NCBI GenBank assembly: GCA_037349105.1
Contig: JAYJMM010000021.1
Span: forward strand, 744,001-808,000
From: Limnomonas spitsbergensis
Lineage: Eukaryota; Chlorophyta; Chlorophyceae; Chlamydomonadales
Reading direction: 5' to 3'
Length of the DNA stretch: 64,000 nucleotides
Shown one piece after another: positions 13,231 through 63,293 of the stretch. A model generated the notes under the pieces. It saw only the letters and a program-made list of their open reading frames with translations. It made no database searches and was not told the DNA's origin. Each line of letters starts with the position of its first letter. Positions within the stretch are counted from its first letter, which is position 1. Made by a program: the position numbers and the translations under genes.

Positions 13231-13234
13231 GTAC

Positions 13235-13925: not shown

Positions 13926-13929
13926 GTAC

Positions 13930-14830: not shown

Positions 14831-15056
14831 GAGTACTGTACCTTGCTTATTTTGATTGAGCCAAGTAGAGTGTTCGTATGATATTATGGCTTTCTACTGT
14901 AGCAGCCAATCATCCCCAACAATGACATCCAAAGATGGACCTAAGTCCACCACAAATGCATTAATTTTGTGTTTGTTTTAAACCTATTTTCGGAACGAAT
15001 GCAAAGTGTTGCTTGACACCTTGCGGTGGAAGTAGCAAATGAGCCATCTGCTAATT

Positions 15057-15608: not shown

Positions 15609-15713
15609 TTAAGGCATCCATGGTGAATGGACGACCAGTCAGATCTTGGATCCTACTGAAATCGAGGAGGTTAACAAACCTTTCATCCCCACAAGTCAGT
15701 GGTGGAGGGCGGG

Positions 15714-16755
15714 CTAGCTGTTGCTCCGGTTTGGCCGTTCGACCTGCGTAGGAGGCATCATTTTCTTCCTCTTCTCCGCCGTCTGTTTGAAAGCTTCGTG
15801 CACCGGGCAACCCGTGTTGTGCGAGAAATCTGCGTGCTTGCAGACCATGCAGACGATGTGGAAGTCCTGCCTCTTCTGGCCGGAGTCCTTGTTCACGCCA
15901 ACCTGGTTTTCCAGGGCTCCTTCTTGCCCTTGTTGCCCTGTGGGTGGACATTGGGAATGCCTTTTAGTTTGGGGCGATAAGGTTGGCGTTCATGTTCTTG
16001 CTCATGAACAGGGACCACGCCTTGCAACTGCATGACCACAGTGTGTTTTGCCAGATCTTCCCAATCTGTCCATGCATCACCAGTGCGGGGGTCGACCTTA
16101 GAGGTCTCCCGGGTCTCTTTCTTGAGCCCTTGCCAGTAAATTAATACCAGATCAGGTGCTGATGGTGCTGGTGGGCCAGCCCTGTTGAGAAGTACTTTAA
16201 ATGAGGTTTGGTACTCGGTTGGTGAGCCCTTCTGGTTTATGTGGTGCAGTGTAGCTCGTGCCACACGTTGCCGGTCAGGTTTGCTGAATGCCGCTTGTAG
16301 AGCAGCTTTAACCTGATCCCATGAGATTGTCTCTTGCTTATTCAGGATGGGTTTAGCAAATGCCAGGTAAGCTTCTAGAGCTTTGCCTGCAAGCATGTTC
16401 ATGCCGTGCACTGCCCAATCTTGCATGGGTACCTTGTTGCCTGACAGTTTGCGAATAACATGAGTGAGTCCTCAATTATGTCGTCATCCCCCCCCTTTAA
16501 ATTTTAGAGGCTCAGGCACACGGCATCTGTTGTGCGCGCGGTCAGTGGTAGGGATTTCTACCGTTGGGCTTACCTCAACCGGAGCCGAAGGTCCAGCGAC
16601 TTCAGTGACTGTCGGGGCCGAAGCTCCTGCCTCCTTGAAATTGGGGTGCAGCGCTTTGAAGGCCTCGTTTCAGCCTGTGTGACCCACTTCTCGTCAACTT
16701 TCTTTTGAGCCAGCCGCTGAGCTGAGTTGATTAGGTGGTTGTTTTTGTGGAGGCA
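15714..16755 (-). pseudogene. gag (capsid-like) region with zinc-knuckle-like motif, frameshifted
   Basis: A Met at 16755 opens MPPQKQPPNQLSSAAG, then shifts occur; PEPLKFKGG precedes a long gag-like frame from 16426 (MQDWAVHGMNMLAGKAL ... WDQVKAAL ... KGSPTEYQTSF). After its stop at 15893 a second frame carries CMVCKHADFSHNTGC, a Cys-Cys-His-Cys cluster with non-standard spacing. Confidence 0.7.
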
Positions 16756-23451: not shown

Positions 23452-26400
23452 CTACTCGTCCAGCGAAAGTGCGTTGATCAGGGTGTTCACCATGGACACC
23501 AGGCTCATCTCGCTCGTCCCTGAACTCAGTCCCTCGAGGCGCTTCTGCGTGTCCAGCGAGCGCATGATGACCACGACAGGGTTGTGGTGCGCGTCATCCT
23601 CTGTCGCTGTCGCGAGACCCAGCACCATGCCCTTCTTCACCGCGTCCTTGAGCCCGTCCATGACCACCTGCAACCAGGACGCATTTCGTATTCGAATTTG
23701 AATTTAGTTTGCGGGGATTCACGGCTGTCGCAACATCAGCAACGTGCAGGCACGGTACATCGGTTCTGCAGCCACAAAGACAGTTCTTTCTCTATTTGAC
23801 GTGGCTGGTCACATTGACAAATTACCATGGTAACAGTCGAAGGCGTGACTGTTTAAGGGTAGGGCGTTGACATGATTTTTGTTTGGCAGGTTCAGTAGGG
23901 CGTAATGAGCAGGGGATGAAATGGCATGAAGAGGAAAAGCACCGAGTGATGGAGTTTGCCTAGCTTCATGCGATCCTTCCAACCTAACTCATCCGCCTCT
24001 GTAGTACTTATGTGAGAGTAAGCAGGGCAGATGGCACTTAAAACCAAGTTAACACCTGCTACTGATATTCCGGTATTTAGTCTTGCGGGCCTGTCTCAAG
24101 TGCTCGCACCTTGAGGATCTTCTCTGATGTTGTTGGCATCAGCAGCTCCACAAGCTCGTGAATGACCCCTTGCTCGATGAGCGCCGCCGTGGCCTCGGTG
24201 CCAATGCTGGATGACCAAGGGTTCGCCAGCACATAGGCAGCTTCTCGCAACATGCCCTCGTCACCGTCGGCCTCTTTCATGACGGCGATGACGTCCCTGA
24301 AAGCGCCTGAGAGTGACGTCGGGAGGCAAAGGCAGGGTTAAAGGTTTTCCAGGTTTTGAGCCCCCCTCGGGTTTTAAATATAGGATGTTGGGGCTGAGGG
24401 TCGTGGAGGTGAGGTAGCTGTCTGGTAGCTGTCAGGTAGCTGCCTAGCGTGGACATCAGAGGCTGTCACAGGGGGCGCAATTTAAAGGTATACTTTCGTG
24501 TAGATGGGGTCACAGCCACTGCCAGGAAAACCAGCATTGCAAGGAAATAACTATTATATTTGTTGATGCATGACCAGTCCTCCATCTGCCACTCACCCGC
24601 TTCTGCCAGCTTCTGTACATGTTTACTGCTGCCGACTGCCAGATTCGATAGCGACCAAATGCACTCCTTGCGAACCTGATGGGAGCAGCGGCAGAGGGGG
24701 GGTCATGGGCTACAGGATCTACAGGATCACACACCATTTCCCCCCAAGTGGGGAGCATGGCATCAGTGCGGAAATGCGACCTCTGCAGAAGACCGTCTGC
24801 TCCCTGGTAGATTTCATTATCTCAGGATGCACGACATTCATACAGAAGTGAGGTTTCCAATGGCTGATTAGCTTGCCTTTCCTCAAACGAAGTTAAAGAA
24901 AAAGGGACCATACTTCAGCAAGAAGCAGCGAACCACACACACAAGCGCCACCCCTGAATTTAAATTTGAATTTCGGAAAACAGGCAGCTGCACACCATCG
25001 GCGCGCCCATCGTTCCTTCCTCACCGACAGAAAGGTGCTCTTCTTCATACAGCTCACAATAGCTGCAATGCCCTCTGCATCCGATACGGCCTGGGTGCAG
25101 GCGGCTGAGCCTGAGCAAATGTTTCCGACGGTCCGCAACGACGGCGCTGACATGGCCAAGGTCGGCTCACTGCAGACGGCACGGGTTGTTTGTTTAGGGG
25201 TAGTTCCGAGTTTACGACCCTATACCCTGACCTGGCCAGGGTGGGCTCACTGCAGAAGGCACAGGTTGCAGGTTGGGGGTGAAGGGTCAATACCATATAT
25301 ACCCTGACATGGCCAGGGTAGGCTCAATGGAGATGAGGATTATGGGCTAAGGGTTAAGATCCTGCAGATGAGGATTATGGGCTAAGGGTTAAGATCCTGC
25401 AACCTGACGTGGCCAGGGCTGGCTCAATGCAGATGTCACGGGTGTGGGCATCTATCATGAACCCAATGCTGACCCAGCAGTGGCAAGGAATATGTCTGCA
25501 CCTTTGGTAGCCATCTGGATGGCGACTGATTGGGTTAACCACTTTCAAGTTTTCTGTTAAGGTAACACTTAATGTCATGGACAGGATGTGGCTTCAGCCC
25601 CGAGCTGCGCTGTCCCCTTCACCCGCACGACCCTAGGGGGGTGTAATCTTCTTTTTTCCTCTCTCTGTCATGGGCCTCACTCGGAATGCATCACGCTGCT
25701 GGCTGAGCCCCTACCGCCAGGCTGCTGATTGATACCTGGCGCCTCTGACTCCTTAACTAGGCCATGTGTCGCAGGCCCTCTCACAGGCCTATTGAGGCCC
25801 CATCTCCCTGTTATTTGTATAAATAAATGACAATTTCCCTGTCCACACAAAGTTTGGGCTGCTTCCGGGGAATCTACCCAAGTCCTCCTCCACAGTCCGA
25901 GCTGCTTCCCGAAACCACTCATCTCCTCCCCCACGCTCCCACACTTCCTCTCACCTCATCCACACCGCCAGCTGCTTCATGATGATGGGGCTTGCCGCCA
26001 GCCTGTCCAAACCCTCCTCCGCGCTGGACATGTACGCGAGCGTCCAGCACATGTGTGTGAGCGCCTCTGCGTCCCGGATAGACCCGATGATCGATTCCAA
26101 CACCGGAAGGGCGCCCTGAGGGTGCATTCCAACAGGTGCGGGGGAAGCAGAGGCACACGGGGTTATAGCATTTTCCAACATAATGGGCAACAGGGCAACA
26201 GAAAGCAGGCTGTCACACCAGCAATCAGGCCTTAAGGGAGAAGGAACAGCGATACCCGTTCCCCGCTCCTCAGCCTCTACCATTCCTCTACCCCTCAAAA
26301 ACAGTGATATGGCCCTCAACCACAACGTCCTCTACTAGACCAAAGGGTTGTCATGGTACAGGTGAAATCCCCTTGGCCTTATTAGGGTGTTTTTGTTGCA

Positions 26401-29400
26401 AAGTTAACGCAATCACCTACAGCATTTGTGAAAGAACCAGGCAGGGCGAACCGAAAGGAGACCAACAACCAAAACCGAAAGGACACAAGCCGACCGACAG
26501 AAAAACAAAGCAACGAGAAGACGATAGAAGCACCAGCGACCAACCAGACACAGACAGGCCACAGAGCCAAATACATCCGTGGGGGGAACTAAGGGGATGT
26601 CGCCTCTCTCACAAGTCATCCCCAGGGCCCACAAACCAGGGGACCACACTACAGCTCCACCAGAATTCCATTTTCAGATCGAAATGGCCACCGTTGGCAG
26701 GCCACCGCATGGCCCCCGAAGGTGTGAGTGGGACAAAACCTGAAATCGCCTACGGCCGGAGGCCCAAGTAGCATGGCCGGCGGCCAGAGGCCTCCAGCAT
26801 GCCTCTGGTACACTCCACAAAGGCCGACATGTAGCAGAGACGCAGAGTGAATCGAAAATACACACAAAGCTCCACTCACATACAACAAGTCGTCCTGTGG
26901 GCGCGGCCGGCACATGTTGCTCAACAGCCACGAGGCCTGCCTTATGAGCGCTGCCTGCTGCAGCGGCCCCCCCTTCATCTCGTCGCCCGCGCCTGTTAGG
27001 GAGATGGTCAAGTGTCTCCCCAACATGCAATGCAGCACCGCGTCCAGCACGCCCTCGTCGATCACCGTCTGCTGCATGTCGCTGCTGTCTGCGGCGATGT
27101 TTCCCAGAGCCCAGATGACCTGTGTGGCAAGGGCGGGAGCAAGGGGGGGAGGTAAGGCCTCAGAAAACATCAGAGACCGAAAAACAGCACACTGGCTCAC
27201 GCAAAGATAACATGATATGCGTAGCAGTCCATCCACATGCGCCGCTGCCAAGTTCAGGGTTTAGGGTACAGGGTCTTAACCCTAAGCCCTAACCCTTGCT
27301 AGTCTGTTCCCTGATAGGTCTTCCATACGCAAAGGAAAATAACATAGATGCAGGGTGGAAGGGCCTGCCTCTCCCTCTTTGCCAGCATCAATCTCCCCCC
27401 CCCCCCCTTGTGGCTGCCTGATGTGTCCCTGAGATCTTCACCTGTCACAGCACCTCTGTGTAACTGCCCACGCCCTCTTCACCTACATCACCCCCCTCTC
27501 TCAATGCATCTGCCTGCCGGGCCCCATTCGCCCTCCCCTGCTTCAGCACCTACGCGCCCCTGGCATGTCCTCTTCATGCACCAATCCAGACCCCCCTTCC
27601 TTCAGAAAAACGATATGAGGATGTGTGCGTGCGGCATACATCTACCCCTCACCTGCACGCCCTTAGCGTGTCTTCTTCATGTTTCACTTCCCCCTCTTGA
27701 GAAATTAAGCAATACAAATGTCTGCGTGCGTCTGCCTGCTGCGTTCCTCTGCCCCTCACTTGCTGCAGCACCTGCGTGCCCCTGGCGTGTCCTTTCATGT
27801 ATCGCCCCCCCTCCCCCCTTAATAAATCGATCGAAGAACATGTCCGCCTGCTGCGTTTCTCTGCCTGCTCCTCACCTGCTGCAGCACCTCCGCATCCCTG
27901 CTTGTGGACAGCAACCGCACGAGGGCGGGCACTGCCCCCTGGTCCACCACATCCTGACAGTCCTCATGGTCCGCACTGCAGATGTTGGTCAAGGCCCAAG
28001 CAGCCTCATGCTGAGGGGACAGGGGGACAGCGGGGGTGGGGTCAGCAGGGAAGGGGTGAGTGTGGACAGTGGGGAAGGGATCAGCGTCACAGCGAGGACA
28101 GGGGAGATGGGGTCAGCATAAAGAGCGGGGATGGGGTCGGCATAAACAGCATGGACCGGGGGGATGGGGTCAGTGGGAACGGGTTCAGTGGGAGTGGGGT
28201 TGGACAAGGGCCTCACATTATGATGAAAGGCATGCTGATGATGTGTGCGGCAGGCCTGGTTGGGGCATCAACTCCTCCCTGGGGTTTGAGGCTCGATTGA
28301 GATGCTGTGCTGGTAGAGAGGGTTGGGATGCAGTTAAGAGCAGACATGGCTTATCCCCTGAGGCTCTACCCCCTTCTTCACCTCTTCTATGGCCGCGCCC
28401 AAAATATGTATGACTCTGATCGTCTCCGTGGCACGGCACTCAGTGTCGCCCTGCCCCCAACCCTCCTCCTGTACCCCCCCTCCCTCCCTCCTACCTGTAT
28501 TTGGCAGCTGCTGTCCCTGGCTAGCAGCTGGACCAGTCGCGGCACCACGCCCAGCATTCGTATCTCACCCACTGGCGGATTCGCCACTGCAAGGAGAGGA
28601 GCAGCAGGCCGCCGTCAGTGCCCACCGGGAGATCAGCAGATCGGCAAGGCCGGCCAGCAAGCCAATGAATATTTATGATGCTTCAGCTACAAGTCAGCTA
28701 CATCAGGGCCTACGGCCGTGGGAGCCTGGTTCAGCAAGCCCTGATGCTTTTGCCTCTGGCCTCAGACGGTCACAGTTGTGTGACCATTGGCCAAGCGCTG
28801 GCTGCCCTGCGGCTTGCTGAAGCTAGTCTGATTCATGCAGAAAATAAACAATGCATGGCGCTCCTGGTTTCTGACACCAGGCCTTAGCATGGATCGCCAA
28901 GAAGAGGGGACAGTAATGTGAGGGATTCGCAGCCTGAGCCTTCTATGCTGCTTGAAGCCATTCAACAGACAGTGCCCCTTTTGCTCCGCCGCATGATCCT
29001 GGCATGCCATTGCCGCATGAGGGCAGCAGCACCAAGGTGCTGCCTCAAAGCCTCGCCAGTGGCCTTTTCTTTTATGAAGGGTGGACATCATTTCAGCTTC
29101 CCTGATTATAGGTACCCCCTGGTACCCCTTGTGTGGAAACATATTCTGCTTGGGCCAGTGTCCGCGGTCCGGTTGAGGTTTTGCCCTGTTCGGGTCTTTG
29201 GAAGCTGCTAAGGTCACTAAAGGCAGACTGGTGGCCGAAAAAGCAGAGCCCTCCTCTCACCCGAAAAAACAAGAACCCTCTTCTCACCCCAAAAACAAAA
29301 CCATCCTCTCAACCGGAAAAAAAACCATCCTCTCACCCGAAAAAGCAGAACCCTCCTCTCACCCCAAAAGGAAACCCTCCTCTCACCCGAAAATGCAAAA

Positions 29401-30950
29401 CCCTCCTCTGACCCGAAAATGCAAAACCCTCCTCTCACCCGAAGAAGCAAAACCCTCCTCTCACCCCCAAAAGCAAAACCCTCCTCTGACCCCAAAAGCA
29501 AAATCCTCCTCTCACCTGAAAAAAACAAAGCCTTCCTCTCACCTGAGAGCCGCTCCCTGAAGTACATGGCTGCCTCCATGATCCCCTCGTCCTCATTGCT
29601 GTACAGCTTCTCCTTTAGGAGGGTCACTGCGTCCAGTGCCCGCTGGACCTGAGGGGGCAGGGGGAAGGCGGGGGCAGGGGGCAGGGGGAAGCCTTTGAAT
29701 CTCGCCAGAGGCCCAAGCGCCTTGCGCGGACGTGCGATTGGAGTGCGGTATGCAGGTTTGGAGCTAAGCGGATGATGATAACAACCGAGACGACTTCCCT
29801 CCCCATTTTATTACAGGGCAGGTTATAATTCATTCGTTTTACCTTGGCTGAGAGGCCACCTTTTGAGGGCCGTCCCTCGGCTCTGAGAATCCCCATTGGG
29901 ACCTAACCTGGACCTGCTTGCTTATGGCCAGCGGCCACCGCAACATGACAGGCCATGCATGGAGCTCCGGCCAGATGCCAATAGGTAGCTGAACTGTCGT
30001 TCATGAACCACACAAAAAGGAGCGCTTATTGCATCAGCGCCCCCCACCCTCCAGCAGCAGCATGTCTGGTCTCCAGCATGATTTCTTGAGAGACTGCCCT
30101 TGGACAGTCCCACCTGTAGTTCCTCAGGTTCAGCCGCCTCATCGTTGACCCGCTTGCCTCGGGCCATTTTGAAGGATGGGCCGGACGTCGCTACACCTTG
30201 CATGCCTGGCTCAGATACCAACACGTTCTCCGCCGGGAGGGCAAAGGTCTCTGCATGGGGCGGTGGCATGCGGGAGGGGGGGGGGGTAAGCCTGCTGGGA
30301 GGGCAAACGGCTCTGCATGGGAGCAGTGCATGCAGGGGAGAGGTTTGGCAAGCCTCAATTTTTGTTTGCCTCCGGAACTCAGCTACATATCAGCTACAAC
30401 CAGGCTTCTCGCCAGAGGCCCTAGGTGTTGCCAGCCATGCTGTTTGGGCCGTCCGCCGTAGGCGGGTCCAGGTCTGGCCTCTGACGGCTGCTGGGCAGCC
30501 TGCTGATCCTGGCCTCGAATCCAAAAATGGAAACCCTGGCAAGCTTGCACTGCTAGTCCCAGTGCCGTTCGCCCCTGGAGGAAACGTCTTGTTGCATGCA
30601 TAGGTTGGTGACCAGGCATGGACGGTCAGCTTGAAAGAGCGTGGCCCAGCTACACTCCCATGTTCAGCACCTTTCATGGCCTCCAGGGCTGAAGCTGCAT
30701 CCGTAATCGTCCCTGCATGGTCCCCAAGGTATGACTCCTGCAGCGGGAAGCAAAGGTTGAGCCCCAGAGGAAAGCGCAGCCGCGAGTAAACGAGGTTCTT
30801 TAGGCACGCTCTTACGCGTTTCCGGGCTTTGGCCTTAGCAGACGCCACGACAAAGGAGTTGACGATCTTCTTGCTGCCTAGCTTGGACTCTACTTTCATT
30901 AACTTGCGAGCCTGCTCATTCCTATCCTTTTTCTGCGCGGCCAGAGGCAT
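23452..30950 (-). CDS. importin-alpha-like ARM-repeat karyopherin, 12 exons
   Basis: Exons (minus): 30950-30816, 30737-30671, 30250-30114, 29648-29543, 28586-28495, 28010-27876, 27119-26880, 26115-25955, 25169-25025, 24675-24597, 24307-24110 and 23667-23452 (TAG), about 570 aa. ARM-repeat signatures come in the family's order: NPPVGEIRMLGVVPRLVQLL; HEAAWALTNICSADHEDCQ; VIWALGNIAADSSDMQQ; ALIRQASWLLSNMCR; CWTLAYMSSAEEGLDRLAAS; PSLRTVGNICSGSAACTQAV; VRKECIWSLSNLAVGS; LREAAYVLANPWSSSIGTE. Known: importin alpha binds nuclear localisation signals through Trp/Asn ladders (WxxxN, seen several times) and pairs with importin beta through an N-terminal IBB domain. Odd: the N-terminus is basic but does not read as a standard IBB. 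Exons 10 and 11 disagree in phase by one base next to a run of four A (24300-24303), which is either an assembly error or a frameshift. Exons 1-3 are less certain than the rest. Confidence 0.85.
25146..25440. repeat. four tandem copies of the exon 9 acceptor junction of the importin gene
   Basis: The + strand phrase ctgac(a/c/g)tggccagggt(g/a)ggctca(c/a)tgcag occurs at about 25148, 25229, 25303 and 25403, roughly 75-100 bp apart. The first copy is the real 3' splice site plus the first codons of exon 9 (minus: ctgcag then tgagccgacc). The others lie in the upstream intron. Confidence 0.75.
26685..26790 (-). repeat. short interspersed repeat fragment (family A, inverted)
   Basis: Reverse complement carries cttgggcctccggccgtagg and ggcctgccaacggtggcc, matching the middle and end of family A. 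It lies in importin intron 7 and is truncated. Confidence 0.5.
27433..27890. repeat. tandem copies of the exon 6 donor junction of the importin gene
   Basis: The + strand phrase ctcacctgctgcagcacc at 27872-27889 is the end of exon 6 plus its 5' splice site (minus: ggtgctgcagcag then gtgag). Diverged copies start at about 27755, 27648, 27533 and 27437, each followed by tgcgtgcccctggcgtgtcc-like sequence. The spacing is about 107-117 bp. Confidence 0.7.
28011..28210. repeat. G-rich tandem repeat abutting the exon 6 acceptor of the importin gene
   Basis: Degenerate ~20-35-bp units of the type ggacagtggggatggggtcagc run from the exon 6 3' splice site (28011) into the intron. On the sense (minus) strand this is a repeated pyrimidine-rich tract ending in cag. 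Confidence 0.55.
28677..28855 (+). repeat. short interspersed repeat copy (family A)
   Basis: Starts atgcttcagctacaagtcag, then tacggccgtggga, ttcagcaagccctgatgctt, accattggccaagcg, ggctgccctgcgg and ends in an A-rich aaaataaacaatg. It lies in importin intron 4. Confidence 0.75.
29228..29560. repeat. about twelve tandem copies of a donor-like unit beside importin exon 4
   Basis: Units of about 25-30 bp, consensus (+ strand) aaaaccctcctctcacccga. The last unit (cctctcacctgagagc) is the real 5' splice site of exon 4. On the sense strand nearly every unit carries a potential gtgagagg donor. Confidence 0.8.
30370..30545 (+). repeat. short interspersed repeat copy (family A, diverged)
   Basis: Starts aactcagctacatatcagct, then ggcttctcgccagaggccct, gctgtttgggccgtccgccg and gcagcctgctga. 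It lies in importin intron 2. Confidence 0.55.
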
Positions 30951-31404
30951 CTCGAGGGGTTAGGCAGAAACAGAGAGGTCGAAGTGGTGACGTTCCTCAC
31001 TTACCGAGCCGCTACCTTTCTTCTCTAAGGTTCGGTCGCCTCCGACACTGCTGACCCCGCAGCCCATAGTCGAGGCTGCAGTGCACTAAACTCAATGGCA
31101 CGATTGCTGTCAATAGCAAAACGGAATCCAAGTATCGCAAGTGTCATACATTTCGAGCAGCCATCGTAAGGCAAAGAGTTACAGGAAGGTATGCGGAGGT
31201 GACACGCAGTCCTTGCGATCTGTGTATTGGTCTAAGGGGGTACTGCTTGTTGTCATAGTTGGAGCCTTTGCTTGGAGCCAACCCGACAAGCCGTACAGCA
31301 TTGAGCCGTGCACAACTGAGCTGCAGACAGCATAACAGAGCAGGCTCTTGACAGTAACACTTGCATTACTTAATTAATTTAAGATATGATCCGTCCTCAC
31401 CACC
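30951..31404. promoter_or_regulatory. divergent promoter region between the importin-alpha-like and channel-like genes
   Basis: Only 454 bp separate the start codons of two genes reading outward, so both promoters and 5' leaders must lie here or overlap. No TATA box or shared palindrome is obvious. The channel start at 31405 has a good context (caccatg). Confidence 0.6.
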
Positions 31405-52400: not shown

Positions 52401-55400
52401 GGGGACTAGTCCGACCCCCCTAGTGACAGGCCCCTTGCCTTGGGCCATGAGGCGCTGCATGTCAGTGATTTGTTTGCTGCAGCCGCATCCCTGTGGGACA
52501 CTGCATGCAGATGTGACCCGCTGTGCTGTTGCCCTCAGTATGGGAGTGAGGCTGTACATCAGGGATTGCAGTGTAGCTTTGCAGCCTTTGGGTGGGCATC
52601 CATGGCTTGCAGCCTTTGGGTGGGCATACCGGGAATTATGGTGAGACTGCCAGCCTGGTCAAGTGCCTCTGCCTCAGGAGTGGTTCAGAAAGGAATACAG
52701 AAAATTACGAGCCACCGGGGTGTGAGGGTTGAGAAACCAGTAAGGCATGGGCCGAGGCTGCGTCCGTGCCGTTACCATGGGGGTAGCTTAATCATTACAA
52801 CAAGTCAGCTGGTCACTTGACCCTCCTGCAATATGTCCCGTCAGGCTAGCAAACGCACTCCACCGCGCTGATCGTCTGACCCACACTTTACATTTCAGAG
52901 CAATGAGCGAGCCTTGCCTTCAGCCCTGCCCCTGCATGCCCTTACGACTTCAGCCCCTTCATGTCCCTACTTGTTCAGTCCTGCCCCTGGTCTGCATGTC
53001 CTGCGGCGCACTGCACCATTTCAAGCAGGCACACACATGCAACTCACCAGATTGTATTGGATTGGACAGGCACACCGAGTCTTTTGAGCTTCCGGCCATC
53101 GCCTTGGCCGTTGAGAGATTGGCAGTCAACTGCAACGATGACGAGCTGCTGATGGCACTGATCACCGCTACCTCGCATGACATGTCTTTCAAGGCCTTGT
53201 CGGTGCGTGCTTGGGCTTGGGATCTTTGAGGCCTTCTTGGTACGAGCTTGGGCTGTTCTTAACTAAAATAGCTGTTTGAGGCCTTGTCGGTGTGAGCTTG
53301 GGCTGTTCTTAACCATAATAGCTGTTTGAGGCCTTGTTGGTGTGAGCTTGAGCTGTTCTTACAAGGCCGAGTTGGAACGTGTTGCTTGGGCTGTTTGAGC
53401 GTTTGGTCTGTCCTGAAGTTGCCCAGTGTTGGTGAACCTGACCAAGGCAACCTCATGAGACAAGCCTGTCGAGGCCCTCTCGGTGTGTGTTGCTTGGGCT
53501 GTCCGTGGAGCTCCTCCAGGTGAAGGGTGGCTTGCAACTGTTGCAACTGTTGCAACTGTTGCAACTGTTGCAACTGTCGCAAGGACCTATCGGTATGTGT
53601 TGCCAGGGCTGTTTGGTCTATCCATGGAGCTTAGGGGTGACGAGCCTCGGGTCACTCACAAGGTCCATTTGACGACTCGTACCCTCGGGAGATCGGGAGC
53701 TGCTGGTTCAAATCACGAGGTTAACAGCGCAAGCTTCAAAGCGCTGAGTTTTCTAGGGTGCTTCAGATACAATGCTGCTACTTCATGGCTGATACATTGG
53801 GGGGCCTGGCGCAGTAAGCCCTGCTGCTTGGCCACCGGCCATTGGCCCAGTGGTGGCTGATCAGCAGCCTGCCAAAGGTGGCCTGGTGCCCCAACAATAA
53901 ACAAGCCACGTTTCTTTGCTTGTGTGGTCTGTCCGTCCTGGCTGGCAAGGATCCCTGCCGCTGCCTGCATGTTTCAGGGCATTCCCAACTGCAGTGTCAG
54001 ATGAGTACAGGATACGAACAAATTGTTTACGTTTGGGACCCAGCATGATCCTGCAGGCCTGTTACTGGCCACCTTCCTCACACCGAAAGTTTCGGTTCCG
54101 CATGTGCGCGCCATGCGCTCGCCACGAAGCCGCTGCACGCAGCCGTGTTTGCCAGCCTGTGCACTTTGAGAGGCAGGATGTCGAATGACAAGGGTATATG
54201 AGGGTTTTGAAAGCTTGGGGTCAGGGCAGAGGCCCGAGACATGGTGGCTGTGTGAAGAGGAGTGGTACAATTAGTCTGAGAAGTGTGAAAAGAGTGGCTG
54301 AATGAATGATGCGGCCCATGCTGGCAGTTCCTGATGCATGCGTGGAGTATGAAGCTGCTCAAGAGAGGGGACGAAGAGACTGTTGGAAACTCCGGCCGCA
54401 CCTATGGGAAGGAGGACATCGAGAAGTTCCTGGTAGATTACATTCAGGAGAAGCGGAACCCGATGTCCGTGGCCTCAGCTATCCTGAGGTAAGGGGGAGG
54501 GGAGGGGACGCATGACACAACCTCTTTCCCTTCGGATTGGGAGGCATGATTTGCATTTTACATTGGTTGGCATGATTTGCATTTATGGATGTTTTGGAGT
54601 CCTGTGGAGCAGCAGATTTCATGCATGGAACAGGTGTCCGCAAACCGGTTTGAGCCCTCACAAGCTAAGACAGAGAGCGATGTATCAGGCAGTGCCCCCC
54701 CTGGGCTTCCGACCTGCAAACAGCCACGATTGCGTACCTGCAGAATTTGCTGCTTCCGATGATGGCCTGGCAGGCCTCCCGGTTGCCACGCTGCGACGTA
54801 GGTATGATACATGCTCTTTGCAGTGGGAAGGGGAGTCAGGAACATCCTTTCCACTGCACCCAGATGGGACAATATGGGATGCAGTGGAAATGGTTTCAAG
54901 TGAGCTTAATGGGCCGGTACTGGAACGCCAAAACAAGTAGTTCAAATACAGAAGCGCAACGTCAGGCAGGCTGAAGACGTGGGCATGTGAATCAGAGTGT
55001 CTTTTACTTTGTGACTTTGGGGGGACTGCTGTGCCGCAGGATCCTCAGTCTGAATGGTTGAGGGGTGGGGGCTCATGCATCCAAATGGCGGGTGGCCTTC
55101 ATCGTGGTCCTAAAGCTTGGCTAAGGCTCTGACCCATGTCCTATGCTGACCCTTCAGACCTTGTGCCTCCAATCATATGAAACACACATCCAAATCACCG
55201 TAATCAAGAAAACGAATTCAGAGTGTGTCATAGCTCTGCGCTCGTGAACCCTAAGAACTGTTAACCATAAACCCCATACCCTAAAAACTGTCACCCCCAA
55301 GCCCTTAACCCTGTACCCTAAGCACCCTGAAACCTGCGCCTTCAGGGCGATCGACGAGGAGATCTTGGTCCACGACGACGCCGCGCGGCCGCTGCGTGCC

Positions 55401-58400
55401 TGCCAGGAGCGCTTCCATTCCTTCATTCAGCATATGCTGGACCAGCTTCTGGAGCTGTGGACCCGGAGCAAGCTGCAGCTCACGGGGCTGCACATGATCC
55501 TGACGCCGACGGAGCACCCGAGCACGGTCAACGAAGTCAGCCCGATAGCGGTGGGGATCAGTTCAGGGGCGCCCGTGGGTGCGCACTGTGCAGCAGTGCG
55601 ACAGTGTCGCTTTATTGTCGCTTCTGGTACACTTCAGCTACAGCACACTTTATGGCTCTCGGCACAGCTACACTTTTATAACTTTCAGCACAGCTACATT
55701 TTTACAGCTTCAGTACAGTGGATGGCTCTCAGGGCTTAGCACAGCAAGAGAGCTCTCCGGGGTGCTTTGCTTGCATGCGCTTCTGCCCGTGTGAGGCCTT
55801 GAGATCCAACACTTGCAAAGCACAGGTCTAAGCTCCTGACAAGGGCTGAAGCAGCTGACAAGCCATGCACAATTTTTGTGCCCAATCAGAGACCCTGCCG
55901 AAGCTTGTTTCCTCCCTCACATGGAATTGGCCTTCTGCTGTTCCTGTACTTGGTGATGAAATGAACCGCCTTCTTATTACGCTCGGCCACCCTCCCAATG
56001 AGCAGATCGCGTTCAAGAGCTACGACCTCGTCTTCATGAACCATGAGCTGCTTCTGATGTTCACTAACAGGAGCTGGTTGGGTCGCCACTACCTGGCGCT
56101 CACGAGCTGCGAGGATGAGCGGTCTATCAGCATGCGCAACCCGCTCTTCTTCTACAGGTCTATAAAATCTCATGAAAATGTTTTGAATTAAGAGCAACCA
56201 AACGAACAAAATGATATTTGACTTCTTTGTATAAGTTTTTCAGACACGAAATTTCTAGGTTTTCACAGCCGGGTTGATCACTCTGTGGCCCAGGCAAGTG
56301 GGGCTGCTTGTAATTATATCACAACCCTGCACCCTTGACTCTTGAATCTTGACCTTCAGAGAGAGTGAACAGGGTACTTATGATCTTGGGCTTTGAAGAT
56401 GGTCCTGAACCTGCATACGTCCACCCTCATTTTGTCATATAATCATATTATCATGAGATATGCTTGTGTCCACCCTCATATCATCAATAATAATCATATT
56501 ATCATACTACCCGTTTGTGCCCAGGGTCCTCAAGATCATGGGCTTTGAAGGTGGCCCGCTGTTCATGGTCATGAAGTATGGCATGGGCGTGTGGCACTGC
56601 TACACGCTGTGCTCCAGCGCGTTCCACAACTCGCCCAGGGGGAGGTGAGGCAGCAGGGGTGCAATCAGGCTCTGGACAAATGCCAGGGGACCTCTAGTTG
56701 CGCTCTGAGATTCTGTGGCATTGCTGTACCCGGTGCTGCTTTGCATTCCACAACTCAACCAGGGGGAGGTGAGTTAGCAGGGTTGCAATCAGGCTCTGCG
56801 CACATCCACACGCCTACTAAACCGCGTGTGTCCTCCTTACTTGCCCCACTTCATCCCCGTGAGCAACCTGTGTCCTCCTTCCTTCCCCTTCCCCCCGGCT
56901 GAGCAGCCTGTACGCCTCTTGTTTGCCATTCACCCCATCACCCTGATCAGTCCGTGGCCCCTTACTCCCCCCCTTCCTCCTCCCCCCCTGAGCAGCCCAT
57001 GGCCCTCTTGTATGCCCTCCAGCCCCTCCACCCCATCTGACACAGGAGCTGCCCTGTTACACTATCACGGATCAGCCTGGTGCCCCCTTCCACCCTCCCC
57101 CCTGAGCAGGTGGCTGATGCAGTTCCTGTGTGAGGGGGGCTTCCTCGCGGTCTACCAACTCATGGTAGGCAGCAGGTCACAAATGCAACTAGCATGCCAC
57201 AAATGCATCGATCATGTCCCTCATACAACAAGCATGTCACAACTTCAACAAGCATGCCACAAATGCATAGAGCATGTCCTTCATACATCAAGCATGTCAC
57301 AAATGCAACAAGCATGTTAAGAATGCTACAAGCAGGTCACAGATGCATGACCTAAGTACATGGAGCACGTCTTAAATGCAACACCGCCACATCTGTTTAT
57401 GCGTTTAAGTCCTCCCGCTCACCTCTTATGGACCAGGGTGATGCAATGGTGATGGTGGAGATTGTAGAGATAGTGGTTTGTCTTTTGTCCCTGACATTAT
57501 GCAGACCTGAATTGAAGGTCTTCTCAACAGTCTGGATTTCCTCTGCCATACTGAATAGAGTATATATGGTTCTGTATGCTGTCCTGACTTTCTCCGTGGT
57601 CCTTATGGATCATTTCCACGGCCATTTCACGGCCATTTCTGATTTCCTTAGCAATCCTGAATGGACAGGTTGCCATGCAGTTCGAATTTCCGCTGCAACA
57701 CTGAATTGATTACCCTCCTATGCCTCAATTATTTTCTCGCACGGCTCAAGCTGCAATGACTATTTATCCCGCGCATTTTGCAGCCCTGGATTTATTCTAC
57801 TGTTGCTTTCCCCACATCAGTGCTACACGCCTGATATTTCCCTGCAGTCCTTATCAGTGATATTCCTGTCCTTCATGCATGGTTGTGTGAACCCTGTCTC
57901 AACCACAGCGGCAGCTTGCTTGAATGCCATGCAGCCTAAACGTTTGTGTCCCTCTGCGGTACAGATCTTGTACCTTTTAAACTCTTCAGAAAGTGTATCA
58001 TCCTTGTTTTCTAGCCTTCCAGCTGTAGCTTGCTTGAATGCCACTCAACGCCCCTCCGTGGTACAGATCCTGTACCCTTTCGAGTCCTACAGCAAGGCCA
58101 ACATTCTGATCTTCCTTGCCTTCAACGTGGGGAACTTTGCCGACATGGTGAGAGGAGAAGGGTGCTTAATGTTTAGGTTCCAGGGCTTAGGGTGAAGGGT
58201 TCAGCTACATTCAAACGGGTGGCTTCCTTTATCCGCGCCCCAGTGCATGCTATATTTCAATTTTTGTAATCGCTTGTGACCTTTGTGATAGGAAGACACC
58301 CCCAGTTTCTCGCCTTCAACGTTGGAATGTTTGCATGGCGAGATGGGATGGCCACACTTTGAGGTGGCATATGCATGCCCATTGAGCCTGCCTTCCACAT

Positions 58401-60060
58401 ATTTTGATTAAATCGCACGCGCCCATGTGGGCCGAAGCATCCCACCTCTCGGCCTCACCTGCCTCTTGGAGGCCATATCCGTTGCATTTTACAGGTATTT
58501 GCAAATCCGTTGAATTTTACTTTCATATCTGTTGCACATTATTTGCAGACATGATCATGGCCTGTTAGACAGCCTGTAAGAGATCTCCACACGCTGGATT
58601 TGTCGTTCGTAGGGCCTGTATTGCCATACCACTGATCTCACTATTGCTGGCCGGAGAGAGCAGGAAATTTTGAAATGTGGAGGCATGCAGTGGTGTCTCA
58701 CCTTGTGAGACCGGAAACAGCCCCTCATGGGTAGATAAAAAATCTGGTTGTCAGTTGCGCATTAAGGAGACAAGGTGGAGAGGTCTGAACCCCAAGCTGG
58801 CGCAAGCATGCTGACTGGACCTGCCTTTCGTTAGTGTACAGTCTCCGTTTATTTGTGGGTGCTCCAGCAACAATTCGGCTATTCCTTGCTGATCTAGGCA
58901 CCCTAAAGCATGTGGCTGTGGGGACCTGGAGCAGCAAGCGCTGTTGCTTGGGCCGCTGTGCGTAGCTCAGCCAAGGTTTGGTCCCCATTGGATAAGTGGT
59001 GACTGCGAATTGGACTGCCAAAGATAGTCTTTTGCCCTCCAAAATAAACGCAGGCTCCTGCAAGCTCCCCCCCTGCGCATCCTTGCCATCACGCGTGTCT
59101 TCTTCCCCCTGCAGGCTCGCTTTATCTACCACAAGTATGGGAGCCTGTCGCACATTGTCGAGTAAGCACAGCATGGACTTGGGGTTGAGAGTTTATGTCC
59201 TGGGATTTTTGGGGTCTGGGTTGGGGTCTGGGTTTTGAGGGCCACCGTTGCATCGTCCGCGGGTCAGGGAACCTGTCGTACATTTTAGAATAAGCACAGT
59301 ATGGACTTTGGGCTAAAATTGTGGAGGTTAATGGTGTAAGGACTTTAGGGCCACCATTCATCGTCGTTCGTACATTGTCGCAATGTCGAGTGAGCATAGC
59401 ATGGACTTGAGGCCCAAGTTTCAGGTCCTGGGTTTGTAGGGTCACAGTTCATCATCCACAAGTAGCGGTTCCGGTCACAGTCGTCTACTCGTTACTGGAA
59501 GAGCTGCTACCTCAAGGGGAAATCCCCTGCATCAATATAATTTAGCCTTAATCTCATTGGAAGATGTCTTCCCTCAATGGAGGAGCCCCCGCCACAAAAA
59601 CAGATAGCTTTTCCCAGGCCATTTCTCAATGGAAATGTCTCCTCTCTATGGAAAAGCTCCTCCCTTTTATGCATCTGTTGATGTGCCCTTAAGCGCGCTC
59701 CCCTTGTGTTCCTCAGGTACGCTGCAAGTGACTCCTGGTACACCATCAACCTCATCACCAACATGTACCTGCTGGTGCTGTCACTGCTCAACGCAGTCAA
59801 CGCCTGGAGCCCGGTAAGTGCCTGCCTACCTACCTACCTACCTACCTACCTACCTACCTACCTACCTACCTACCTACCTACCTACCTACCTACCTACCTA
59901 CCTACCTACCTGCCTACTTACCTTCCTACCTGCCTGCCTACTTGCCTACCTCCCTGCCTACCTGCCTATCTGCCTGCCAGCCTGCCTACCTACCTGCCTA
60001 CCTACCTACCTGCCTACCTACCTACCTACCTACCTACCTACCTACCTGCCTGCCTACCTA

Positions 60061-60091
<31 letters not shown>

Positions 60092-60108
60092 ACGTACCCA
60101 CCTGCCTA

Positions 60109-60146
<38 letters not shown>

Positions 60147-60700
60147 TACCTGCCTACCTGCCTACCTGCCTACCTACCTACCTACCTACTTGCCTACCTA
60201 CCTGCCTGCCTGCCTACCTACCTACCTGCCTGCCTGCCTACCTGCCTACCTACCTACCTGCCTACCTACCTGCCTACCTGCCTACCTGCCTGCCTACCTG
60301 CCTACCTACCTGCCTACCTGCCTGCCTACCTACCTACCCACCTGCCTACCTCCCTGCCTGCCTGCCTACCTACCTGCCTGCCTGCCTACCTGCCTACCTA
60401 CCTACCTACCTGCCTACCTACCTGCCTACCTGCCTACCTACCTGCCTGCCTACCTGTCTGCCTACCTGCCTACCTGCCTACCTGCCTACCTACCTGCCTA
60501 CCTACCTACCTACCTACCTACCTACCTACCTACCTGCCTGCCTACCTGCCTGCCTACCTACCTACCTACCTACCTACCTACCTACCTACCTGCCTGCCTG
60601 CCTGCCTGCCTTCCTGCCTGCCTGCCTACCTACCTGCCTACCTGCCTGTCTGCCTGTCTGCCTACCTGCCTGCCTGCCTGCCTACCTGCCTACCTGCCTA

Positions 60701-60743
<43 letters not shown>

Positions 60744-61068
60744 ACCTGCCTGTCTACCTGCCTACCTACCTGCCTACCTACCTCCCTGCCTGCCTGCCTG
60801 CCTGCCTGCTTACCTGCATGCATGCCTGCCTACCTGCCTGCCTACCTGTCTACCTGCCTACCTACCTACCTACCTACCTACCTGCCTACTTACCTTCCTA
60901 CCTGCCTGCCTACTTGCCTACCTGCCTGCCTACCTGCCTATCTGCCTGCCAGCCTGCCTACCTACCTGCCTACCTACCTGCCTACCTACCTACCTACCTA
61001 CCTACCTACCTGCCTGCCTACCTACCTGCCTGCCTGCCTGCCTGCCTGCCTACGTACCCACCTGCCTA

Positions 61069-61106
<38 letters not shown>

Positions 61107-61636
61107 TACCTGCCTACCTGCCTACCTGCCTACCTACCTACCTACCTACTTGCCTACCTGCCTGCCTGCCTACCTACCCGCCTGCCTGCCTACCTGCCTA
61201 CCTACCCGCCTGCCTACCTACCTGCCTACCTGCCTACCTGCCTACCTGCCTGCCTACCTGCCTACCTACCTGCCTACCTGCCTACCTACCTACCCACCTG
61301 CCTACCTCCCTGCCTGCCTGCCTACCTGCCTGCCTGCCTACCTGCCTACCTACCTACCTACCTGCCTACCTACCTGCCTACCTGCCTACCTGCCTGCCTG
61401 CCTGCCTACCTACCTGCCTACCTGCCTACCTACCTGCCTACCTATCTACCTACCTACCTACCTACCTACCTACCTATCTTCCTACCTGCCTGCCTGCCTA
61501 CCTGCCTACCTGCCTACCTACCTGCCTACCTACCTGCCTACCTACCTGCCTACCTGCCTACCTGTCTGCCTACCTGCTTACCTACCTACCTACCTACCTA
61601 CCTGCCTGCCTGCCTACCTGTCTGCCTACCTACCTA

Positions 61637-61667
<31 letters not shown>

Positions 61668-63293
61668 ACCTGCCTACCTACCTACCTGCGTACCTACGTT
61701 CCTGCCTGCCTGCCGGCCTACCTACCTACCTGCCTACCAACCTACCTACCTACTTGCCTACCTACCTACCTGCCTACCTGCCTACCTGCCTACCTGCCTA
61801 CCTGCCTACCTGCCTACCTGCCTACCTACCTACCTACCTACCTACCTACCTACCTACCTACCTACCTACCTGCCTACCTGCCTACCTGCCTGCCTGCCTG
61901 CCTATCTGCCTGCCTGCCTGCCTGCCTGCCTACCTGCCTGCCTACCTACCTGCCTACCTACCTACCTGCCTACCTACCTACCTACCTACCTACCTACCTG
62001 CCTGCCTACTTGCCTACCTGCCTGCCTACCTGCCTACCTACCTACCTGCCTACCTGCCTGTCTACCTGCCTACCTGCCTACCTACCTGCCTACCTGCCTG
62101 TAGATTGTTGCCCCGCTTGCTCTAACCCTGCCTGCCAGACTTTGATCCCTGGACCTCTGTGATCCATGTCTGCATGCAGTCGCCGTACATGAACGCAAAG
62201 CGGAATGACTGGCTGCACTACTGCTTGTGCTCAGCAGCCCCGTTTGTCTGGGTGAGGTCCTCCTGGTTGGGTGGGGGGGGAGTTTGGCTTTTTGCTGGGG
62301 GCCCTCATCTATGGCCTATGGGTCTCTGCAACCCGGAGAGCAGCCAAGAGTTCCATCGGCCTTCAGCAACATAGCCATGAGTTCCTGGAGCCTTGATAGC
62401 AGCCATAGGTTTCTGCAGAGCCTTTCGAGCAACATAGCCATGAGTTCCAATCCCATACAATTGTTCTGTGTGCTAGTTTGTTTCAGGTTGGGAGCCTGAT
62501 TGTTTGTTTAGGGTTTAGGGTTCAGAGTTTATACAGCTCACCTGGAATGGTGGACCCATTTCATTGGATCCTCCATTCAAAGGAAATGTGGGACATCAGC
62601 TTAGGAGGATCATGCTTGGATCCTCGAATGGGTACCACTCCACCGCCTCGCTACACCATAAAACTTTCTGGTCCGCACTGCTCAGCCCATTCAAATATAC
62701 CACACATTGAGTGGATGTGTAGCTCGGGCTGTGACAGCACCCCAGCAGAAGTGCTTAACAGGCTTTTGGGCGGGTACGTAGCTGTCCCTGTGACAGTGGC
62801 CTAGGCTGACGGGTGCCTGCCTCTACCCCTGCCCCTACCCACGCCCACGCCCACGCCCACGCCCACGCCCACGCCCACGCCCACGCCCACGCCCACGCCC
62901 ACGCCCACGCCCACGCTCACGCCCACGCCCACGCCCACGCCCACGCCCACGCCCACGCCCACGCCCACGCCCACGCCCACGCCCACGCCCACGCCCACGC
63001 CCACGCCCACGCCTATGCCCACGCCCATGCCTATGCCCATGCCCACGCCCATGCCCACGCCCATGCTTTAAGCCCTGCAGGTCCGATTTCTATCCATTAT
63101 AAGACCCTGTGAAGAGAGGCTGAAGATGCGTTCCTGCCCCTACCCCTGCAGATCAGAGCTCTATTCATCATCATGCCGGTTTACCCGACACTGGGCTCCC
63201 TCCTCACGACCGTGTCCAGGATGGTGGCCGCTGTGCTTGCCTTCGCCCTACCCATTGTCGTGGTCATGGGAGGCTTTGCCACCACGCTCTCCG
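31405..63293 (+). CDS. large polytopic membrane protein, TRP-type ion-channel-like, 18 exons seen, 3' end outside window
   Basis: Exons: 31405-31830, 32224-32310, 32848-32969, 33586-33754, 35355-35536, 36401-36452, 51825-51919, 52899-53202, 54328-54488, 55346-55550, 56006-56157, 56525-56644, 57110-57164, 58067-58147, 59115-59161, 59717-59813, 62180-62251 and 63152-63293, about 856 codons. All 17 introns are GT-AG and every phase agrees, ending in phase 1, so more exons lie downstream. The first ~340 residues are soluble and contain [17 protein letters not shown] and [17 protein letters not shown]. Hydrophobic segments cluster at the end: [52 protein letters not shown] and [36 protein letters not shown] before the last one resembles the S4-S5 linker of TRP/polycystin channels. 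Also typical is [13 protein letters not shown]...[10 protein letters not shown] ahead of the membrane part. The pore and S6 are not in view, so the channel call is inference. Exon 8's start and exon 10's end are the least certain sites. Confidence 0.68.
31862..32028 (-). repeat. short interspersed repeat copy (family A, inverted)
   Basis: Reverse complement reads ttgcttcagctaaaattcag, then ctggtgcagcaagccctgca, cttgggcctgcggccaaagg, tctagtggtagctgcgcaac and ccaaggcagtctgatatgca-like sequence, in family order. It lies in channel intron 1. Confidence 0.75.
32311..32590 (+). repeat. ~77-bp minisatellite starting at the exon 2 donor of the channel gene
   Basis: About 3.7 units of gtggggacagaagaaaaccc + ttcgattgccagacagggg + aagcaggacccccccctcca + gggggaccagacccctg. 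The intron begins gtaggtgtggacagaag, so the first unit coincides with the 5' splice site. Confidence 0.85.
33741..33893 (+). repeat. five ~30-bp copies of the exon 4 end plus donor in the channel gene
   Basis: cattcaaccggcag|gtgggt is the real end of exon 4 (33754) and its splice site. Copies follow with their gt at about 33785, 33815, 33848 and 33881: tttcaaccggcagttgg, tttcaagcggtagttgg, cattcaaacagcaggtgggt and cattcaaccggcaggcgggt. Confidence 0.85.
34597..34690 (+). repeat. dispersed repeat family C, copy 2
   Basis: atgaaagaaaggaaactacg, gggcttgagggttaag, gcggcttgggcggagactga and ggctgctccgttaccat. The last block is shared with the copy at 52688. Confidence 0.6.
36453..36720 (+). repeat. 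degenerate gggtgcatgg-agtttaggg tandem repeat at the start of the giant intron
   Basis: Begins directly at the exon 6 donor (gat|gtagggtttagggg). Units of roughly 17-22 bp vary on gggtgcatggagtt(t/a)agggt. One unit reads gggtgcatgaactttaaggg, which contains both gcatgaact and gacttt-like words, close to the two main units of the 10-bp array that follows. Confidence 0.75.
37137..51789 (+). repeat. 14.65-kb minisatellite of a 10-bp unit inside one intron of the channel gene
   Basis: About 1,460 units of gcatgaactg with a small set of variants: gcatgacttt, acatgaactg, acatgacttt, gcatgcactg, gcatgaattg, gcatgaaatg, gcataaactg, gcatgaacta and a few rarer ones. After one 2-base insertion near 37241, every unit up to 51780 stays in strict 10-bp register. 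Rare variants recur at fixed distances: gcttgaactg at 39421, 42431, 45531 and 48231; gcacgaactg at 38301 and 44411; gcaagaactg at 40741, 46851 and 50861; gcatgaactc at 41071, 47181 and 51121. These show ~3.0-kb and ~6.1-kb higher-order copies. The minus strand has no stop in any frame over kilobases; the + strand meets TGA every 30 bases in each frame. It lies wholly within the intron 36453-51824. Confidence 0.97.
51945..52090 (-). repeat. short interspersed repeat copy (family A, inverted)
   Basis: Reverse complement reads caattcagttacatcagggc, tacgaccgtggtggcatgat, ggtgcctgctgcccaga, ttgcccagccgtggccgcag and ttctggtgcacactgac. It lies in the intron after exon 7. Confidence 0.65.
52688..52780 (+). 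repeat. dispersed repeat family C, copy 3
   Basis: agaaaggaatacagaaaatt, ggtgtgagggttgagaaacc, aaggcatgggccgaggctg and ccgtgccgttaccatgg, in the same order as copies at 10767 and 34597. Confidence 0.6.
53187..53520 (+). repeat. tandem copies of the exon 8 end plus donor in the channel gene
   Basis: The exon 8 end and splice site, caaggccttgtcg|gtgcgtgcttggg (53202), recurs as gaggccttcttg|gtacgagcttggg, gaggccttgtcg|gtgtgagcttggg, gaggccttgttg|gtgtgagcttgag and gaggccctctcg|gtgtgtgttgctt. The first intronic units are 55-60 bp long and each keeps a GT at the equivalent place. Confidence 0.8.
53531..53580 (+). repeat. 9-bp microsatellite (ttgcaactg)n
   Basis: About five and a half units of ttgcaactg in the intron between exons 8 and 9. 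Confidence 0.9.
53754..53905 (+). repeat. short interspersed repeat copy (family A)
   Basis: gggtgcttcagatacaatgc, gcgcagtaagccctgctgct, ccattggcccagtggtggct, gcagcctgccaaaggtggcc, tggtgccccaacaataaaca. It lies in the intron between exons 8 and 9. Confidence 0.75.
56589..56800 (+). repeat. duplicated exon 12 end plus donor in the channel gene
   Basis: The exon end cgttccacaactcgcccagg ggag|gtgaggcagcag (donor at 56645) is copied 124 bp downstream as cattccacaactcaaccagg ggag|gtgagttagcag (56769), followed in both by ggttgcaatcaggctctg-like sequence. Confidence 0.8.
57170..57345 (+). repeat. degenerate caacaagcatgtcacaaatg tandem repeat just after exon 13
   Basis: About nine imperfect units of 16-20 bp begin five bases after the exon 13 donor (57165). 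Units alternate caa(c)aagcatg(t/c)cacaa and atgcatcgatcatgtccctc-like words. Confidence 0.75.
57858..58090 (+). repeat. duplicated acceptor and start of exon 14 in the channel gene
   Basis: agcttgcttgaatgccatgc ... cctctgcggtacag|atcttgtacc (57965) and agcttgcttgaatgccactc ... cctccgtggtacag|atcctgtaccc (58067) are 102 bp apart. The downstream copy fits the protein ([12 protein letters not shown]); the upstream one would read ILYLLNSSE. Confidence 0.75.
58870..59050 (+). repeat. short interspersed repeat copy (family A, diverged 5' end)
   Basis: ggcaccctaaagcatgtggc, gagcagcaagcgctgttgct, tgggccgctgtgcgtagc, ccccattggataagtggtga and ggactgccaaagatagtctt, then aaaataaacgc. It lies in the intron between exons 14 and 15. 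Confidence 0.65.
59120..59480 (+). repeat. exon 15 and its donor repeated about three times
   Basis: gagcctgtcgcacattgtcga|gtaagcacagcatgg (59162) recurs as gaacctgtcgtacattttaga|ataagcacagtatgg (about 59290) and as tacattgtcgcaatgtcga|gtgagcatagcatgg (59390). Only the first copy keeps the full coding sense. Confidence 0.7.
59817..62100 (+). repeat. 2.28-kb (CCTA/CCTG)n tetranucleotide array in an intron of the channel gene
   Basis: Starts at about the fourth base after the exon 16 donor (ccg|gtaagtgcctgcctac) and runs almost unbroken to 62100. Units are cctA or cctG with few others. Several hundred-base blocks recur, for example the ttaccttcctacctgcctgc stretch near 59920 and 60890 and the gcctgcctacgtacccacct stretch near 60085 and 61045, showing ~0.97-kb block duplication. 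The + strand has no stops, which gives long shadow frames of Leu-Pro-Thr/Ala-Cys/Tyr. Confidence 0.95.
62823..63064 (+). repeat. hexanucleotide (CCCACG)n microsatellite
   Basis: About 40 units of cccacg, with c-to-t changes (cccatg) gathered near the 3' end. It lies in the intron between exons 17 and 18, about 90 bp before the exon 18 acceptor. Reading frames across it are Ala-His or Gly-Val repeats and are not genes. Confidence 0.95.

Follow-up and report, generated by a model that had tools for sequence, protein, structure and literature searches.

What accounts for the many tandem repeats that lie at the exon-intron junctions of two neighbouring genes in this stretch of DNA? The window considered here is the whole stretch of 64,000 nucleotides (G000:C21:744001-808000), which belongs to a genome of 260 Mb in 124 contigs and is eukaryotic, as judged by its spliced genes. 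A preliminary description listed 13 junctions, in an importin gene on the minus strand and a channel gene on the plus strand, at which an intronic repeat either copies exon bases together with the splice site or begins within a few bases of the donor. Two explanations were offered, namely a duplication process acting on the DNA of splice junctions, or retention of repeats only where additional splice sites are harmless.

Both explanations presuppose correct exon ends. We placed junctions by reading frame and intron phase, with the earlier list being known at the time, and the resulting models agree with the exon ends used in that list: its four importin junctions are confirmed and its channel junctions are consistent. 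Residues 113-489 of the importin protein form a single alignment to rice importin-alpha 1a (E = 4.5e-58). A second, diverged importin-alpha gene on another contig (L011, G000:C109:2838829-2842388) has the same intron positions from exon 5 onward, with exons that are 72-81% identical and introns without a match. The first three importin exons, junction 30250 included, are without homology support. The channel gene has no significant homolog, its sole structural match being yeast YVC1 (E = 0.11), and therefore its exon ends were set by phase and frame. The 28 introns used from the window are all of the GT-AG type, one donor having been moved by 4 bp after that check; donor 55535 (GTCAGC) is uncertain, yet was retained in the sample. 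Use of the exon-proximal splice site is likewise deduced from frame, with added homology for part of the genes.

The full sample comprises 58 introns from a handful of genes. Thirty-one of these lie outside the window, in the importin paralog, two chaperonin genes (L012 and L013), an RRM gene, an arginine-deiminase-like gene, a dehydrogenase and the later channel exons. Gene-finder models supply 25 of the 58 introns (later channel, U2AF-like, ADI-like, SDR, the last importin intron, L012 and L013). The gene finder regained 23 of 26 exons of its own training set, a recovery that gives no independent accuracy because those exons were the ones it was trained on. Pfam backs the ADI, SDR and RRM proteins, and chaperonin profile matches back L012 and L013; the searches made give no support for the later channel exons. 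For the protein here called ‘U2AF-like’, Pfam gives RRM_1 only. We excluded on grounds of length a 78-bp importin intron, a 136-bp L013 intron and a 15-kb intron with a giant array, and as poorly modelled the first introns of L012 and L013, those introns of the U2AF-like and ADI-like genes that lie upstream, and the channel introns between 63294 and 64460 and between 67544 and 68371.

Several further features were noted in passing. The RRM gene (L010, two RRM domains, E = 4.9e-24), which we take to resemble the U2AF splicing factor, lies about 36 kb past the window at window coordinates 99988-103561, and one of its introns carries an acceptor-straddling array. Look-alike chaperonin genes of similar span occur in pairs on separate contigs (C39:6055491-6062468 with C99:3126192-3134088, C36:4468834-4475930 with C119:2694606-2701732, and C84:960233-966491 with C114:964124-969250), and these pairs represent either an old genome duplication or two haplotypes. 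Within the window, an open frame at 1453-2058 encodes a PGA_cap domain (E = 1.1e-30), and a reverse transcriptase at 13820-14506 (RVT_1, E = 5.4e-31) lies in a retroelement region at 11215-16471 on the minus strand; further retroelement-like open frames were recognized by eye in 11215-16471 and at L003-L006. Proline-rich proteins tentatively suggested a green alga, but a Pfam scan of one of them returned no family.

Twelve of the 13 listed junctions bear repeats as described, in that the repeat either takes in the splice site together with exon bases or has its start no more than 17 bp from the donor. The claim fails at junction 28010, where the nearest family (28040..28173, minus strand) stops 29 bp short of the acceptor and is without exon bases. 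Three further clear cases, at 30250, 34276 and 56524, were absent from the list. Among the importin introns, all read on the minus strand, copies on the acceptor side of junction 25169/25170 (25147..25443) include the acceptor and 23 exon bases, with 81% identity across 53 bp at an offset of about 80 bp. Diverged donor-side copies at junction 27876 (27505..27900) carry 25 exon bases and the donor at an offset of 116 bp. A 26-bp array at donor 29543 (29232..29546) begins at -4, inside the exon, and repeats a donor-like GGTGAGA in several of its units. At exon start 30250, whose exon end is set by frame only, there is a 62-bp two-copy duplication on the acceptor side (30232..30355) that takes in 19 exon bases and has a gap of 0 between its copies.

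The channel gene, on the plus strand, shows the same range of arrangements. On the donor side, copies at 33754 (33732..33889) include some 15 to 23 exon bases, two of the three having an altered splice GT, and copies with a 50-bp period at 53202 (53147..53489) include the donor and 11 to 16 or more exon bases, or 56 in a weak alignment. A two-copy duplication at donor 56644 (56590..56805; 80% identity) takes in 20 to 55 exon bases, and its duplicate donor scores equal to the real one. Two diverged copies at donor 59161 (59124..59441) carry 16 to 38 exon bases, one of them having lost its GT. On the acceptor side, copies include 20 exon bases about 240 bp away at 34276 (34002..34296), 20 to 33 exon bases in a diverged copy at 56524 (56365..56557), and 14 to 57 exon bases at 58066, listed earlier as 58067 (57950..58123). 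Other repeats begin just inside the intron: a 78-bp array with 95% identity at +3 of donor 32310 (32314..32583), a 20/60-bp array at +6 of donor 57164 (57171..57348), and an array of GGGTGCATGGAG-type repeats from +17 of donor 36452 (36470..36695), for which one alignment begins at -6, inside the exon. A weaker case absent from the list occurs at donor 32969 (20 exon bases, score 20, below the family cut of 22), and junction 63151 is weak as well (20 bases, score 16).

The two largest arrays are also in channel introns. The preliminary description had proposed that they are extreme outcomes of a process acting at junctions, a proposal that their positions do little to sustain: the giant 10-bp array (GCATGAACTG; 37139..51790, plus strand) starts 686 bp into the intron of donor 36452 and ends 34 bp before the acceptor, and the CCTA/CCTG array at donor 59813 (59815..62141, plus strand), which starts between +1 and +7 with about 7 bp as its distance after the donor, is one case. 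The 10-bp array might have grown from the donor-side repeats of its intron. By eye only, the repeats at 36470-36695 and the array at 37139-51790 have GCATGAACTT/GCATGGAGTT-like pieces in common. Another channel intron contains a CCCACG hexamer array of 37.7 copies (62838-63063) that ends 88 bp before the acceptor, and two dispersed intronic repeat families (34789-34889 and 30377-30540) each have matches on many contigs, with identities mainly of 92-96% and 77-81%.

Across the sample, the 22 best junction pairs have copies 68-95% identical to the junction, spaced 27 to 280 bp apart (median 98) and 41 to 388 bp long, with one array longer. The copies are contiguous or overlapping in 13 of these 22 best pairs, which is the head-to-tail adjacency of tandem duplications and minisatellites; the remaining nine have spacers of 32 to 217 bp. 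Intronic minisatellites resemble the present repeats in forming tandem arrays within introns, and to our knowledge they do not favour splice junctions.

How far do the copies extend into exons? The fraction of probes with a copy is 0.18-0.29 across the intron, 0.21 at the junction and 0.15 wholly in the exon edge, and deeper in the exon it is 0.02 at -40, 0.01 at -60 and 0 of 149 at -80 and -100. Over an equal range, intron pseudo-junctions exhibit a slow fall from 0.14 to 0.09. The deepest confident exon share in any copy is 62 bp. This exon cut-off likely results from selection, as a longer exon piece would make the decoy site too good.

GT or AG is retained in 28 of 37 junction copies, and the exon-proximal site keeps the frame, findings that bear out the earlier suggestion that the extra splice sites are harmless, at least seemingly. 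One could imagine that spare sites are useful, either for alternative splicing or as insurance, and that selection keeps them. Ten of the 37 copies (5/19 donor, 5/18 acceptor) score at least as high as the real site, and the splice dinucleotide is kept in 18 of 24 strong copies compared with 14.8 predicted from identity. This surplus is small, however, and thus the decoys show neither purging nor clear retention. Splicing at a copy would lengthen the product by 31 to 498 bases, and by hand count 13 of 37 such offsets are divisible by three, as chance would give. The best-pair offsets likewise lack a preference for multiples of three (6/22), so protein-level use is not suggested. We consider usefulness of the spare sites a very improbable reason for their presence.

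The preliminary description proposed measuring, genome-wide, the distance from junctions to repeats against shuffled positions; we examined the placement of repeat families in the 58 introns. A family was defined as clustered self-alignments of an intron plus up to 100 exon bases, at a score cut of 22, and was counted as junction-anchored when its outer edge fell from 65 bp inside the exon to 10 bp inside the intron. For the null distribution, each family was re-placed randomly from 60 bp inside one exon to 60 bp inside the other; the giant 10-bp array was omitted because its intron exceeds 10 kb. Families touch or cross junctions in 24 of 34 cases against 10.3 expected (p below 2e-4), with 13 at donors and 11 at acceptors. 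The two window genes contribute 14 of 20 (6.1 expected). Outside the window the count is 10 of 14 (4.2 expected, p = 0.0008), and thus the earlier assertion that repeats lie nearer to junctions than uniform placement predicts holds up in both sets. By successive distance bins from the junction, the outer edges number 24, 6, 4 and 2. Furthermore, when exon flanks were swapped 20 times, crossings averaged 0.75 at donors and 0.65 at acceptors, compared with 8 and 10 for the real flanks; because swapping nearly abolishes crossings (18 versus 1.4), the junction-crossing copies are real.

These counts depend on choices that deserve scrutiny. The edge limit was raised from 60 to 65 bp after an edge at 62 had been seen; with 60 bp, in a first run on 54 introns, 23 of 34 families were anchored in all and 9 of 14 outside the window (p = 0.0047). 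At 40 bp, 18 families are anchored where 8.3 are expected, and outside the window 7 where 3.4 are (p = 0.028); with a limit of 20 bp there is no significant excess (9 against 5.9, p = 0.105). Restricting the analysis to families that score at least 28 leaves 17 of 22 anchored in all and 6 of 9 outside the window (2.8 expected, p = 0.024). The family test itself was devised after a position-by-position count had given a null result: junction 40-mers have copies in 15 of 110 cases, against an interior mean of 14%, which is no enrichment. That count is blunt because an interior probe may find its partner on either side and because the interiors are filled by a small number of giant arrays. With one-sided matched probes the ratio is about 1.5-fold for all introns, with an interval that includes zero. 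It is about 2-fold when array-filled introns are dropped, a figure on which we do not rely because this exclusion biases it.

Array edges taken from a repeat finder were judged against a circular-shift null. At a score of 50, edges within 10 bp of a junction number 7 for all introns (3.4 expected, p = 0.04) and 2 with the two window genes set aside (1.4 expected, p = 0.41). At a lax score of 30 there are 16 for all introns (8.0 expected, p = 0.005); with the two window genes set aside, 7 edges lie within 10 bp (3.7 expected, p = 0.07) and 6 within 5 bp (1.9 expected, p = 0.0095). On the acceptor side, polypyrimidine tracts may contribute to these edges.

A further comparison used matched pseudo-junctions at score 22. 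The count is 24 of 116 for real junctions, 25 of 290 for intron interiors and 16 of 500 for intergenic DNA, which puts the excess at about 2-fold relative to interiors and 6-fold relative to intergenic DNA. Outside the window the count is 10 of 62, which differs clearly from intergenic DNA (p = 0.0002) and is borderline against intron interiors (p = 0.065, ranging from 0.04 to 0.33 over five score cuts). With 0.95 families per kb in introns, compared with 0.36 in intergenic DNA, a reader would find many repeats near junctions from which to choose, and the null 40-mer count (with both directions allowed) and the result at 20 bp speak for such chance and choice. Against this stand the family placement outside the window at either edge limit, the excess at score 28 and the flank-swap control. 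We therefore judge chance and choice to be an improbable account, and conclude that the excess at junctions is moderately above chance.

Must a special process be invoked for this excess? The preliminary description’s proposal of one that duplicates DNA at junctions outruns the evidence, in that the excess is about 2-fold over interiors and longer survival might alone give up to about 2-fold. Indeed, ordinary tandem duplication combined with tolerance and survival probably, if by no means surely, explains the 2-fold excess over interiors, and these three together could explain most of the excess. Local tandem duplication would strike gene DNA regardless of splice sites. A unit crossing an exon end would be tolerated as long as its exon part stays below about 60 bp, since splicing would still use the exon-proximal site, and duplications reaching further into the exon would be purged. 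Copies tied to constrained exon sequence would then outlive purely intronic pairs, because selection holds one of the two copies; the size of this advantage, up to about 2-fold, is our estimate. Consistent with such an account, copies are about equally frequent throughout the intron as far as the junction and become rare within the exon, donors and acceptors are alike, pairs are often contiguous, GT and AG are retained, and crossings are lost upon flank swapping.

Duplication with tolerance and survival also meets difficulties. In a simulation of substitution decay with the exon frozen, the expected anchored share rises from 0.29 to 0.33, compared with the 24 of 34 seen. Substitution decay is therefore too weak, and the account leans on protection from deletion, the strength of which is estimated. 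By simple arithmetic, 2-fold protection would bring the expected share up to about 0.46, whereas 0.71 is seen (10 of 14 outside the window). The anchored share is 4 of 7 for families with at least 0.86 identity, 11 of 11 between 0.78 and 0.86, and 8 of 16 under 0.78, and hence does not grow with age. Moreover, the outer edges are concentrated in the junction bin instead of trailing off through the intron. Finally, five donor families start within -5 to +10 of the junction, against 0.54 expected (acceptors have one), and an exon-held copy leaves these donor-abutting families unexplained because they include at most 4 exon bases.

The same observations keep alive a different explanation, in which splice junctions are hot spots for local duplication that is tied to transcription or splicing, for example through offset nicks on both strands that are filled in at repair. 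Because part of the anchored share remains beyond about 0.46, the edges are peaked and there is no growth with age, we regard hot spots as a possibility to be entertained, although a rather unlikely one. The family counts within and outside the window, the comparison with intergenic pseudo-junctions and the donor-abutting families all agree with it. However, four of the five donor-abutting families belong to genes of the original observation, the excess over interiors is only about 2-fold and borderline outside the window in the matched test, the youngest families are anchored in only 4 of 7 cases (p = 0.07), and the evidence consists of standing copies. Edges also lack a fixed place relative to the splice site, being scattered over about 60 bp of exon without a set position at GT or AG; neither this scatter nor the donor-acceptor parity (13 and 11) suggests that splicing intermediates serve as templates. 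Somewhat more doubtful still is the specific proposal of a transcription- or splicing-linked process that copies about 30 to 280 bp spanning the borders and feeds the growth of introns and arrays. Such a process would act at donors and acceptors alike.

Exon-edge copies sitting within introns could also be traces of intron origin, whether by tandem duplication of an exon or by insertion of an intron-like element. We find this extremely unlikely. Exon ends do not resemble the far ends of their introns, with a 30-mer identity of 0.289 for the intron’s own far end and 0.284 for other introns, and on this basis intron gain by tandem genomic duplication was rejected. Direct repeats from border to border are no longer than chance: when 56 introns were compared over 60 bp around their borders, the longest exact match averages 6.66 bases for an intron’s own borders and 6.80 for other introns, and exact matches of at least 12 are found in neither set, where Rogers and Bendich (PMC11782384) allow imperfect ones. 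Recent intron gain was set aside for the one gene examined, as the importin paralog shares its intron positions; among the seven paralogous introns tested at the same positions, no junction probe exceeds 13. In one L011 intron a family extends to 3 bp beyond the acceptor. Introners were likewise rejected. Although 10 of the 58 introns have a piece in common with some other intron at an E cut of 1e-6, all 28 matches are partial, at 34 to 190 bp.

Several published studies describe systems with partial likenesses. In Daphnia pulex, intronic direct repeats are attributed to staggered double-strand breaks, with internal repeats in 55 of 90 new introns compared with 16.2% of old ones (PMC4202315). 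Those repeats resemble the present ones in being local, direct, within introns and proposed to lengthen them. They differ in sharing 4 to 12 bp with the exon, as opposed to copies of 41 to 388 bp that include the junction, and in marking new introns, whereas the introns here are old in at least one gene. The repeats of Rogers and Bendich (2025, PMC11782384) also lie at intron/exon borders, but as described there they pair the 5' with the 3' border (4 to 30 bp), whereas here a border pairs with a copy in the same intron. Intron gain by tandem duplication in Drosophila (PMC2891723) and potato (PMC4974935) similarly involves a duplication that carries splice motifs; there the duplication creates the intron, whereas here the introns pre-existed. 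Amoebophrya introners have repeats at exon/intron boundaries, but they are families of similar whole introns with inverted repeats (PMC7789003), and the introns here are not mutual copies. The Haematococcus genome is described as highly repetitive (PMC7617258), in a paper whose main text does not use the term ‘tandem repeat’. Among open-licence papers, seen in part, we found no report of a local-duplication excess straddling splice junctions, which is no proof of absence.

If exon borders are mutation hot spots, then splicing or transcription would shape the DNA adjacent to exons, and introns would grow in a directed way. If the repeats reflect survival only, then these genes present a natural case of many duplicated and often intact splice sites that are seemingly harmless to splicing. 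The duplicated sites make the choice between equal splice sites testable, as to whether position or strength decides. On either account they call for caution in the use of gene finders, because junctions often have near-copies tens to a few hundred bases away.
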